From Actinomycetota bacterium (GTDB taxonomy: Bacteria; Actinomycetota; Acidimicrobiia; Acidimicrobiales; CADCSY01): a stretch of DNA of 38,477 bases. Made by a program: the position numbers and the translations under genes. Below the pieces are notes generated by a model. That model saw only the letters and a program-made list of their open reading frames with translations. It ran no database searches and was not told where the DNA came from. The stretch spans positions 1 to 38,477 of the forward strand of contig JAHWJI010000013.1 in the NCBI GenBank assembly GCA_019348495.1, read 5' to 3'. This document shows positions 6,432 to 11,693 of this stretch, one piece after another; the stretch's first letter is position 1, and each line of letters opens with the position of its first letter.

Positions 6432-7652
6432 CTACTCCTCGGTGGTGGCGGGCTGTTGGGGCATGACGCCCTCGGGCTCGGCCGAGGCGGGAGGAGCCAG
6501 ATCGTCGGCCGTGGCGCCGGCGGTGGCCGGCGGGGTGGGCACGTCGTCGTCGCTCACCGGCGCGTCGGCGGTGGCCCCATGGGAGCCGATGGGCGAGCTC
6601 GCCGCCGAACCGGGCTGGGTCTGGGGGAACAAGGCGGCCACCGCGGCAGCGTCGTCGCGGGTGGGCACCGCGCCGGGGTTGGGCTCCACGGCATCCGAGG
6701 GGGGCGCCTGCACCGAGGGCACGGGCTCGCCGCCGCGCTCCTGGCCCATCTCCGGTGATGCGTGGGCGGGCGCCACCGCCTCGGTCTCCTCGGCCGAGCC
6801 CGGGGCAGGCGCGGCCACGGGTGCAGCTTCAGCCCGGCGGGCCTCCCGCTCGTCGCGCTGACGGATGGCGTCGGCCCGGGCCGCCGCCTGCTGGTGGCCC
6901 CGCTCGGCTTCCTGCTGGGGGGTGGGCGGCGGCGGGACGGGCTTGGGTGCGTTCCCCCGGCGCTCGGCGATGAAGCGGCCTTCCTTCACGGCATCGCTGA
7001 CGACCCGGCACATCAGCGTGCCCGATCGGATGGCATCGTCGTTGCCGGGGATGACGTAGTCGATGAGGTCGGGGTCGCAGTTGGTGTCCACCACGGCCAC
7101 GACCGGCACCTTGAGCTTGTTGGCCTCGGTGACGCCGATGTGCTCCTTCTTGGTGTCGATCACGAACACGGCGTCGGGCAGCTTGGCCATGTCGCGGATG
7201 CCGCTCAGGTTGCGCTCGAGCTTCTCCAGCTCCCGGCTCTTCTGCAGGGCCTCCTTCTTGGGCATGGCCTCGAAGTCGCCCATGGCCCGCATGCGCTGGA
7301 ACTCCTGCATCTTCTTCACCCGCCCGCTGATGGTGGAGAAGTTGGTGAGCATGCCCCCCAGCCAGCGCTCGTTTATGTAGGGCATGCCGCAGCCGATGGC
7401 GGCGGCGGCGATGGGGTCCTGAGCCTGCTTCTTGGTGCCGATGAACAGCACCGAGCCGCCGTCGGCGACGAGGTCGCGCACGAAGACGTAGGCCGTCTCG
7501 ATCCGGCGCAGGGTCTGCTGGAGGTCGATGATGTAGATGCCGTTGCGCTCGCCGTAGATGAACCGCTTCATCTTCGGGTTCCACCGCCGGGTCTGGTGGC
7601 CGAAGTGGACCCCCGCTTCGAGCAGCTGCTTCATGGTCACGACCGGCGCCAC
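6432..7652 (-). CDS. rpsB: Small ribosomal subunit protein S2 with a long C-terminal tail
   Basis: Residues 1-232 are a standard S2: [21 protein letters not shown] near the N-terminus, the FIGTKKQAQ strand at 70-78 and [10 protein letters not shown] at 201-210. Residues 233-406 are a low-complexity tail rich in Ala, Pro, Glu and Gln, with a charged helical stretch near 245-275. E. coli S2 has 241 residues. The start is the GTG at 7650-7652, giving [12 protein letters not shown]. It follows a GAAGGAGG ribosome-binding site at ideal spacing, whereas the open frame upstream to 7868 would run into the neighbouring gene. The 113-base leader upstream would be the place for a promoter; a weak TATGCT box lies at 7751-7756. 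Confidence 0.95.
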
Positions 7653-7765: not shown

Positions 7766-9637
7766 TCAGCCGCCCCCGGTAGCGACAGGGAGGGGGGCAA
7801 CAGGACGAGAGGGGCCGGGCGGGCGACGGAAGGCCCCCGAGGGGGTGGGCACCTGGCGGTCGAGCCACAACGCCCCCAACCCGGCCGTCAGCCCGAGGGC
7901 ATCTTCACCCATGCTGATCCCTGCGGCCAGGGCGAGGTCGCCGGTGAGGTCGCGACAGGTCGGACCCTCCCCCGCCAGGGCGAGGGCCAGCTCCCGCTGG
8001 GTCAAGGGCGATCCCGGAAGCTCGGCGTGGGCGGTGAGGCCGTCGAGGGGGATCACGACGTTGGTGGCGCCCTCGAGCGAGCTTTGCAGGCCGGCCACGG
8101 TGAGGTCTCCGCGGGCGGCGATCGACGTGACCCTGGTCCGAGCAGGTGGGGGCCGGTCGTTGAGCTCGTGGATGAAGCCCGACGTCTCGGCCAGCTGGCC
8201 CGCCGCCGCCGACGCCCCGTCGAGCGAGCCCCCGGTGACCTTGCTGGTGACCGCCTGGGCCGCCTCACCCGCGCCCGTGGTCCCGAGCAGGGCGTTGGCC
8301 GTGGCCGCGTCGGCACCGTGGTGGGGCGCGCCCAGGGTGACGAGGTTGGCCACCGGCCGGTGGTCATCGAGGGCCAAGCGGGCCACGATGCCACCCTGGG
8401 AGTGGGCCACCACGTCGACACCGACGCCGGGGTTGGCGGCGGCGATGACGTCGATCAGCTCCCCGAGACGCTGCCCGGCCACCTGCAGGTCGCCGGTCGA
8501 GTGCTCCGGGCCGTACTCGCTGACGCGGACGCCGGCGAGGCTGCCCCTGGTCGGGGTTCGACCCCCGGCGTAGGAGAACTGGACCACGTCGTCGTGGGCG
8601 TAACCCAGGGCCGCGGTGTCGACGTCGAGCACATCGGCTCCCTCCGACGACGAGCCGAACCCGGCCACCAGGACGGCGATCCGGCGTCCTGGTGAGGGTG
8701 GGGGTGGTGGTTGTGAGGCCGGCGTGCAATGGGCCTGGGCGGCCCGGAAGCGCTCGGCTCGCTCCCACTGCTCGACCACGTGGAGGACGAACAACGGGGT
8801 GACGGGGAGCTGGCTGGCGTAGGCGGCGAGCACCACCGCCTGGGTCCACAACGACTCGGCTTCGCCCCGTAGCGCCTCCCAGCCCGTCTGCGCCGCCCGC
8901 TCGGCCAGGGAACGGGCCTCTGCCGCGGCCACCACGGCGGCGTCGGCAGCCCATGACAGGGCGCCGTCGGCTGCCTCGCCGATGGCTCCCACGCCGGCCC
9001 CGACCCCCCGCCAGGCCTCACCGACGACCTGCTCCACCAGGTCGACGAGCCAACGGCGCTCCTGGGTGGCGTCCTGGGGCTCGCGCAGCTCCACGGGGAT
9101 GAGGTGGACCTCGACGGCACCACCGGCCAGCAGCACGGCAGGGTCGATGTAGCGCTCTCCGGCCCGCACCCCGAAGTGCAAGACGGGACCAGCGGTCCCC
9201 ACCACGTCTCCCGCAGCCAGCCGTGCACCCCGGTCCACGCCCACCGTCGACAGGAATGAGTAGCTGGTGCGCAGGCCGTCGGGGTGCAGGACCACCACAT
9301 GGCTGGACGGGCCGATGCGCCCGGCGAAGGTGACCTCGCCCTCAGCCGAGGTTCGGACCGGTTCGCCGGGTGTGGTGGCGTAGTCGATCCCCCGGTTGCC
9401 GGCGGCGTAGGGGGTAGCCGGAGGCCGGAAGCTGTCGACCACCGGTGCCTCGACCGGAGGGCGGTATGCGGTGGTGGCCTCGGTGCCGGCAGCGGCGGCG
9501 GGCGCGGCGCCAGCCAGGGTGGCCAGGGCCACGATGGCGGCGGCCAGCGTTCGAAGCGCCGGCGTGGGGCGGGATCGGCGCAGGGACGCGCTGGGGCGGG
9601 CGGGCACGAGACCCGGGCCCGGACGGGACGAGGGCAT
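7766..9637 (-). CDS. Secreted LytM/M23-like domain fused to an alpha/beta-hydrolase (lipase/PGAP1-like)
   Basis: A 623-residue exported protein. Residues 1-50 look like a signal region (basic start, Ala-rich helix 31-50 ending in an AAAA cleavage-type site). Residues 58-170 match an M23/LytM fold, but ligands are missing: the expected HRG-D is N81-R-G-I-D85 and the expected H-x-H is V152-L-H154. It is therefore probably a non-catalytic peptidoglycan-binding or activator domain. Residues 190-300 are Ala-rich and helical. Residues 318-540 are a serine hydrolase: VAGFG oxyanion loop, nucleophile AHSQGG (S413), TLGAPHHG, with D511 and H537 as plausible triad partners. The C-terminus is Pro-rich. 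An M23 protein beside rpsB is common in Actinobacteria, but the hydrolase fusion is unfamiliar to me. The substrate is unknown. ATG start at 9635-9637 after GGGAG. Confidence 0.85.
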
Positions 9638-9795: not shown

Positions 9796-10638
9796 TCAGG
9801 CGGTCTGGCGGTCGACGGCCAGCGTGGAGCGGAGGTGGATGACCGCCTTGGTGTGGATCTGGCAGACCCGGCTCTCGCTGACGCCGATCACCTGGCCGAT
9901 CTCTCCCAGGGTCAGGCCCTCGTAGTAGTAGAGCGTGAGCACCAGCTTCTCCCGCTCCGCCATCCGGTTGATGGCGTCGGCGAGGACCTGGCGTACCTCC
10001 TCGACCTCGTAGGTGGCCACCGGGCCCGGGGCAGGGTCGGCGACGGTGTCGCCCAGGGTCAGGCTCTCACCCTGGTCGGCGCTCACCATCAAGATCTCGT
10101 CGAGCGCCACCAGCCCCACGAAAGAGATCTGGCCGAGGGCCGACTGGAGCTGGGCGTCGGTCATGTCCAGCTCGCTGGCCAGCTCGGCGTCGGTCGGCGC
10201 CCGCCGCTGGTCGGCCTCGAGCTTGGAGAAGGCGGCCTCGATGGCCCGGGCCTTCAGCCGCACCGACCGCGGCACCCAGTCGATGGAGCGGAGCTCGTCG
10301 AGTATGGCGCCTTTGATCCGCGAGATGGCGTAGGTCTCGAACTTGAAGCCGCGAGCGGGTTCGAACTTGGCGATGGCGTCGATCAGCCCGAAGATCCCGT
10401 TGCTCACCAGATCGCCCTGCTCGATGTTCTGGGGCAGACCCCCCGCCACCCGCCCGGCGACGTACTTCACCAGCGGCGAGTAGTGGACGATGAGCTGGTC
10501 GCGCAGCTCGACGCTGTCCGTCTCCTTGTAGTCGGCCCACAGCCGGGCCAACTTCTCCTTCTGCCGCAACTTGTCGCGTTCGTCGACACGCTTGTCATCC
10601 TCAAGCCTGTCGCTGTCGCCGCTGTCGTTGTGGTCCAC
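9796..10638 (-). CDS. whiG: RNA polymerase sigma factor of the WhiG/FliA (sigma-28) family
   Basis: A 280-residue sigma-70 family protein lacking region 1.1. Residues 1-40 are highly charged. Region 2 spans about 48-122, with QGDLVSNGIFGLIDAIAKFE and FKFETYAISRIKGAILDELR, the region 2 pattern of FliA/WhiG/SigB-type factors. Region 3 is about 130-180, and region 4 with the helix-turn-helix about 220-272 (LTLGEIGQVIGVSESRVCQ). WhiG of Streptomyces controls sporulation and FliA controls flagella; which role applies here cannot be told, because no flagellar or whi target genes are in the window. GTG start at 10636-10638, 23 bases after xerC. A short GGGCC/GGCCC hairpin (9770-9782) follows the stop at some distance. 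Confidence 0.9.
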   Translation of the reverse strand: MDHNDSGDSDRLEDDKRVDERDKLRQKEKLARLWADYKETDSVELRDQLIVHYSPLVKYVAGRVAGGLPQNIEQGDLVSNGIFGLIDAIAKFEPARGFKFETYAISRIKGAILDELRSIDWVPRSVRLKARAIEAAFSKLEADQRRAPTDAELASELDMTDAQLQSALGQISFVGLVALDEILMVSADQGESLTLGDTVADPAPGPVATYEVEEVRQVLADAINRMAEREKLVLTLYYYEGLTLGEIGQVIGVSESRVCQIHTKAVIHLRSTLAVDRQTA

Positions 10639-10661: not shown

Positions 10662-11693
10662 TCAGCTCGGTCCCTGGTCCGGCGCATCGCCGGTGGCCAG
10701 CCGAGCCCGCGGGTGCGATGCCTGGTGCACCGACCGCAACCGCTCCTTGCTGACGTGAGTGTAGTGCTGGGTGGTGGCCAGGTCGGCGTGGCCCAGGAGC
10801 TCCTGGACGGCGCGCAGGTCGGCGCCCCCATCGAGCAGGTGGGTGGCGAAGGTGTGGCGCAGGGCGTGGGGATGGGTCGGCGACACCGCCCGTCGATCGA
10901 GGATGCGGCGCACGTCGCGCGTCCCCAGGCGACGACCACGGCGGTTGAGGAACACGGCCTCGTCAGGTGAGGCGGCGGTGGCCAGGGCGTCACGCCCCCG
11001 ATCGCACCACGCCCGTAACGCCTCCATCGAGGGGGCGCTGACGGGCACCTGGCGCTGCTTGGCGCCCTTGCCCCACACCCGCAGCACACCCCGGTCGAAC
11101 AGCACGTCGTCGGGGGCCAGGGCGCACAGCTCGGCCACCCGCAGGCCACTGCCGTAGAGAAGCTCGAGCACGGCGTCGTCGCGCAGGCGAATGCTCGGAT
11201 CGTCCTCGTCCACCACCGCGGGCGGGTCGTCGAGCAGGACCTCGAGCTCCTCGGCACGCAACACCCGGGGCAGGCGACCAGCTCCCCCGGGGGCGGACAC
11301 GCCGATCGACGGGTCCGATCCCAGGCGACCGCTGCGGACCAACCAGGCGAAGTAGCGGCGCAGGGCCGAGGCCTTGCGGGCGATGGTGCGCCGGGCGTAG
11401 CGCCGGGTGGCGAGGTAGGCGAGATAGCGGCGCAGCACCCGGCGGTCGACGGCTTCGGGCCCACCAAGACCGGCCCGGCCCGCCCACACGGTGAAGGCGA
11501 CCAGGTCGCCCTGGTACGCCCGCACCGTGCTCGCCGACACCGAGGTCAGCGAGGAGACGAACGACTCGATCTGCCAGGCCGGTTCGGCCGACTGCGCCCG
11601 GCGGAGCCGGCCGGATGCCTCAGCCCTGGCTGACGGTGCCCTCGATGAGGTCCCTGGTCTCCTTGCTGGCCGCGCCACAGTTCTGGAGACCAT
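10662..11693 (-). CDS. xerC: Tyrosine recombinase XerC family
   Basis: A 343-residue tyrosine recombinase likely to resolve chromosome dimers at dif with XerD. The N-terminal SAM-like core-binding domain (about 40-125) precedes the catalytic domain. The active-site residues are complete: R185 (SGLRVAEL), K209 (GKGAKQR), H276 and R279 (HPHALRH), H302 (LLGHADL) and the nucleophile Y311 (TQHYTHVS). The start is uncertain: the ATG at 11691-11693 overlaps the end of the lipoprotein gene by 74 bases and its first 35 residues are low-complexity, but there is no ATG or GTG between residue 7 and the folded domain. The housekeeping context and the absence of att-like repeats argue against a mobile-element integrase. 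Confidence 0.9.

Follow-up and report, generated by a model that had tools for sequence, protein, structure and literature searches.

Between rpsB and a whiG-type sigma factor gene, the window analysed here (38,477 nucleotides of Actinomycetota DNA) encodes a 623-residue protein in which a degenerate LytM domain is joined to an α/β-hydrolase of lipase type. Computation established its domain make-up, which active-site residues are lost or kept, its conservation and synteny, and purifying selection on it. We consider it fairly probable that the protein is a secreted, wall-docked lipase or esterase of the envelope, built on an ancient actinobacterial LytM protein. The fusion is an old, widely kept design in the class Acidimicrobiia and is not singular to one genome. 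No description of a LytM-hydrolase architecture was found in the open-licence literature.

Domains and active-site residues of the fused protein

The gene and its surroundings are laid out as follows.

7766..9637, minus strand: LytM-hydrolase gene, 623 aa, ATG start; signal peptide, degenerate LytM domain, helical linker and α/β-hydrolase
9488..9637, minus strand: predicted signal peptide, residues 1-50, with hydrophobic helix 27-43 and an AAA/GT-type cleavage site (from sequence and model)
9113..9487, minus strand: degenerate M23/LytM domain, residues 51-175 (from PF01551, active-site columns and fold matches)
9395-9397, 9383-9385, 9254-9256, 9182-9184 and 9176-9178, minus strand: LytM-half positions N81, D85, F128, V152 and H154, respectively
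8693..9112, minus strand: Ala-rich helical linker, residues 176-315, holding conserved C304 (8726-8728)
7943..8692, minus strand: α/β-hydrolase, residues 316-565 (from Pfam, conservation of triad and Cys, and fold)
8399-8401, 8105-8107, 8027-8029 and 7955-7957, minus strand: hydrolase positions S413, D511, H537 and C561, respectively
7769..7942, minus strand: C-terminal helix and Pro-rich tail, residues 566-623, poorly conserved
6957..7631, minus strand: rpsB, ribosomal protein S2 core, downstream syntenic neighbour
9796..10638, minus strand: whiG/fliA-type sigma factor gene, upstream syntenic neighbour
10662..11693, minus strand: XerC/D-type tyrosine recombinase gene, part of the kept gene order

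The neighbours rpsB and whiG, both named in a preliminary description of this DNA, were confirmed. The start region of the fused gene is common to the same-genus relative L055, and the linker differs in length among aligned relatives. The signal peptide predicts that the protein is exported. A search of the window against Rfam gave no match.

An AlphaFold2 model, run with 24 family members, had pLDDT >90 over most of the LytM domain and most of the hydrolase. Residues 176-279 were mostly below 50, and helix 281-303 was confident. Structure prediction, proposed earlier as a check, thus gave high confidence for both halves and matched them to M23 and lipase structures. The LytM half aligned (VIA-align) with the M23 hydrolase StM23 (9gy1, Z 19.6), DipM (7qrl, 18.9), EnvC (4bh5, 17.8) and SpoIIQ (3tuf_B, 17.2); by Foldseek its top structural match was DipM. 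The hydrolase half (residues 314-563) aligned with lipases at Z ~18, including Streptomyces lipase 5h6b and CalB. Profile comparison against solved structures agreed with these matches.

Pfam Peptidase_M23 (PF01551) matched residues 81-166 above its curated cut-off (E 4.3e-15). The same-genome paralogue L001, with the complete pattern H-D-H-H-H, was used as the reference for the M23 active site. Aligned with it, the window protein reads N81-D85-F128-V152-H154, and three of the five residues are lost. The zinc motif H-x-x-x-D is broken (N81-D85), the second catalytic His (YxH) is F128, and H-x-H, with its catalytic first His, has become V152-L-H154; the remaining ligands D85 and H154 are kept. 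In M23 enzymes the residue replaced by N81 is a zinc-ligand His, those replaced by V152 and F128 are catalytic His, and the site of H154 is a ligand. We take the position of V152 to be LytM H291 in the established numbering, the catalytic first His of H-x-H. The preliminary description had counted at least two lost metal ligands; this stands for N81, but V152 replaces a catalytic His, and F128, the third loss, had been missed. As in degenerate LytM regulators, a LytM fold is present without catalytic residues. The earlier view that the M23 half is no ordinary cutting enzyme agrees with these losses, from which we infer that it is not a normal peptidase and has lost peptidase activity. Because D85 and H154 are kept, it may still form a weak metal site.

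No single clear Pfam family covers the hydrolase. PF02089, PF07819 and PF05057 scored above their cut-offs around the AHSQGG nucleophile elbow; DUF7379 was found in 24 of 24 members at E<=0.001 and fell below its own cut-off in the window protein. The triad proposed earlier proved complete in every relative covering the columns and lies in a lipase fold: among the aligned rows of 80 fused proteins, Ser was present at 413 in 79/79, Asp at 511 in 78/78 and His at 537 in 78/78. Because this triad is intact, esterase activity is predicted. Two cysteines flank the hydrolase, C304 (77 of 80 fused proteins) and C561 (74 of 80), and a disulfide between them likely closes it. The lipases 5h6b of Streptomyces, BlEst2 of B. 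licheniformis and CalB have the fold, Ser-Asp-His triad and AHSQGG elbow in common with the window hydrolase, as do its Pfam relatives DUF7379, DUF676, PGAP1 and Lipase_2. However, identity to known lipases is ~20-26%, and here the enzyme is carried on a LytM domain.

Stepwise change of the LytM active site

The comparison of active-site columns took in ~145 LytM domains. Only one relative retains the second catalytic His; eight retain the first His of H-x-H, namely six LytM-only loci of other classes, L054 and L223. Most members outside the window's order have kept the H-D-H zinc triad. Of 46 loci in the window's own order (its family and genus included) that have a residue at position 81, 45 carry Asn; the residue is His in 17/18 loci of other orders of the class and in 38/39 elsewhere in the phylum. 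Four changes at this position are needed on the LytM tree. Where H-x-x-x-D once stood, the window's order has a nearly invariant GNRG[ILV][DE], in which Asn81 is near-fixed within G-N-R-G and position 85 varies between D and E. Catalysis was probably lost first and zinc binding later. Because the replacing Asn is nearly invariant in a dead site, these columns suggest a new task for the groove.

The same columns bear on whether the LytM half still binds metal through N81, D85 or E85, and H154, for catalysis or ligand recognition. The frequency of Asn81 in the order, D or E at position 85 in most members, H154 in nearly all and the zinc triad of relatives outside the order speak for this. Against it, almost no relative retains the catalytic histidines, even where the zinc triad persists, and D/E85 or H154 is missing from some N-type members; we regard such binding as improbable.

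In six LytM-only loci beside whiG in other classes (L199, L201, L203, L204, L213 and L215), H-D and H-L-H are both intact and the second catalytic His is the sole loss; their products may still bind zinc.

Distribution, selection and genomic place

In a family-profile search of 296 Acidimicrobiia genomes (threshold E <= 1e-10), 211 had a match. Both halves lay in one match in 44 genomes and in two adjacent pieces in at least 8 more, giving ~52 of 296 among the matches listed. Conservation of the fusion in Acidimicrobiia, a check named earlier, was evident: it is present in many families of the class, at one locus. Outside the class, a small number of other classes in the phylum also have fused proteins (L191, L194, L205, L208, L209, L211, L212 and L214), some encoded at the whiG/rpsB place and others elsewhere. 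An assembly artefact, or a fusion confined to one genome, was rejected. Two refuting conditions set out earlier, restriction of the fusion to this genome and a broken hydrolase, were thus both contradicted. Dozens of genomes have an orthologue in the same position, which together with the dN/dS values below speaks against chance.

Comparison of the window gene with four close relatives gave dN/dS of ~0.24-0.37 in both halves, and mostly higher values in the signal peptide, which is under the weakest purifying selection. Because of these values, neither half is judged to be decaying. In a tree built from the short LytM domain, the fused/unfused label changed 15 times on the best topology (48 after shuffling), with at least 4 changes forced by well-supported branches. 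Because the label changes, the hydrolase is, on this tree, dispensable in some lineages. The LytM-domain tree is compatible both with one fusion followed by losses and with several fusions. The lipase-type fold and triad, together with the presence of the hydrolase in some lineages and not others, would fit a secreted lipase that feeds on extracellular lipid and alone matters, the LytM half being a remnant or spacer. We consider this highly improbable: constraint on the LytM domain is similar to that on the hydrolase, the domain is kept alone at the same place in many genomes, and its GNRG motif is nearly invariant in the window's order.

Almost all relatives of the order have the gene order chlI-dprA-xerC-whiG-LytM(-hydrolase)-rpsB-tsf-pyrH-frr. 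The window gene belongs to the rpsB-adjacent actinobacterial LytM genes and has their place in the order xerC-whiG-LytM-rpsB-tsf-pyrH-frr. A short, hydrolase-free LytM gene adjoins rpsB in many members of the window's order. Among 17 further members of the phylum nearly all have one as well, and there it is often on the opposite strand. Because such a gene is found there across order and phylum, a LytM gene beside rpsB is probably the old state, and the hydrolase an addition or a part repeatedly lost. The location between ribosomal genes and a sigma factor had been called unusual; on the contrary, LytM at whiG/xerC-rpsB is widespread in the phylum, and the hydrolase is the variable part.

Rv2891 of Mycobacterium tuberculosis, which adjoins rpsB, is presumably the mycobacterial counterpart. 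It has been listed as an M23-like gene, without characterisation (PMC8594824). Genes of this type resemble the window gene in having a LytM domain next to rpsB with the catalytic His replaced, in the phylum members examined. Unlike it, the rpsB-adjacent LytM genes of other phylum members are short (frames mostly ~170-300 aa), encode no hydrolase and retain an H-D-H zinc triad; they are often found on the opposite strand. The window gene thus draws attention to an uncharacterised relative, the rpsB-adjacent LytM gene of better-known Actinomycetota.

Neighbouring envelope genes and proposed function

The gap between the fused gene and rpsB holds no gene in the window. A SpoIID-domain (lytic transglycosylase-like) gene occupies it in 7 loci (L052, L064-L068 and L070), a PQQ/BamB-like β-propeller gene with a lipoprotein-like start in 17 (L053, L069, L243, L249 and others), one of these loci having both; the propeller gene occurs in members of the window's order and of other orders of the class. 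One or the other lay directly downstream in 23 of 67 fused loci and in none of 43 LytM-only loci (Fisher p 2e-6, uncorrected for kinship); the association may follow kinship.

The window genome has one SpoIID gene, on another contig, and one Amidase_2. Searches of this genome (98% complete) found no Amidase_3 (PF01520), for which the same search was positive in 8 of 14 control genomes, and no NlpC/P60. With both families absent, a strict EnvC/NlpD-type activator of Amidase_3 was set aside. The genome, 2.2 Mb in size, has a small wall-hydrolase set.

Dead LytM domains of other systems are binding partners and stimulators of lytic transglycosylases and amidases (PMC10336132), and they serve as protein hubs (PMC9662197). 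In activator LytM proteins, the dead groove serves chiefly to engage wall hydrolases and switch them on (PMC10336132, PMC9662197). The window protein shares a dead LytM groove and a strong fold match with DipM of Caulobacter and the EnvC/NlpD regulators; it differs in that its LytM domain is N-terminal and fused to a hydrolase, and its genome lacks Amidase_3. No LysM domain was found in the window protein with Pfam. SpoIIQ, a degenerate LytM protein of endospore formers, has the LytM fold in common and a different architecture. The preliminary description had likened the M23 half to activator LytM proteins, as a domain that probably binds peptidoglycan. The likeness holds only in part: those proteins chiefly activate wall hydrolases, and Amidase_3 is absent here.

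It is possible, though rather unlikely, that the LytM half is chiefly a DipM/EnvC-like regulator whose dead groove switches on a SpoIID-type transglycosylase or Amidase_2, with the hydrolase as an accessory. Besides the Foldseek match to DipM, which stimulates a lytic transglycosylase (PMC10336132), this would suit the 7 fused loci that have a SpoIID gene immediately downstream, and the single SpoIID and Amidase_2 of the window genome. However, that genome has neither Amidase_3 nor NlpC/P60; and because no LytM-only locus had an adjacent SpoIID gene, such a partner would be expected to follow the hydrolase, not the LytM half.

We favour instead the wall-docked lipase or esterase. The LytM half would no longer cut peptidoglycan, and its groove may, as a guess, dock onto peptidoglycan or onto a partner in wall remodelling. 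A flexible helical arm would hold the active Ser-His-Asp hydrolase, probably closed by the C304-C561 disulfide, and the enzyme would remove acyl or ester groups at the wall or membrane surface; the substrate is guessed, and so is a link to a SpoIID-type lytic enzyme. We counted for this proposal the residue loss, the triad, the folds, dN/dS, conservation at one locus, the downstream envelope genes and the LytM analogues. Counted against it were the empty rpsB gap and the SpoIID gene on another contig in the window genome, the label changes on the tree, and the retained D85 and H154. Only tentatively do we suggest that the GNRG[ILV][DE] groove exchanged zinc catalysis for recognition of a new ligand and positions the hydrolase with a SpoIID-type lytic transglycosylase. 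If this is true, lipid or ester chemistry and peptidoglycan remodelling would be coupled in one secreted polypeptide, in a wall enzyme complex of a hitherto undescribed kind.

Dead LytM domains are known switches for wall enzymes, and the studied cases come mostly from Proteobacteria and endospore formers. Here one was followed across a whole phylum at a fixed place, with its active site lost in steps and a lipase-like enzyme joined to it. In Acidimicrobiia, a large class with few cultured members, the protein is a concrete candidate for linking the wall with lipid or ester chemistry.

Two minor observations concern the surroundings of rpsB. The gap of one LytM-only locus is occupied by an opposite-strand gene (L036:6389-7144, minus strand) encoding a membrane protein that resembles cytochrome b. 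The window's rpsB frame (~6432-7640, minus strand) encodes an Ala/Pro/Glu-rich C-terminal tail that extends ~165 aa past the usual S2 core; this tail is also present in same-genus and same-family relatives (tblastn matches of ~400 aa).
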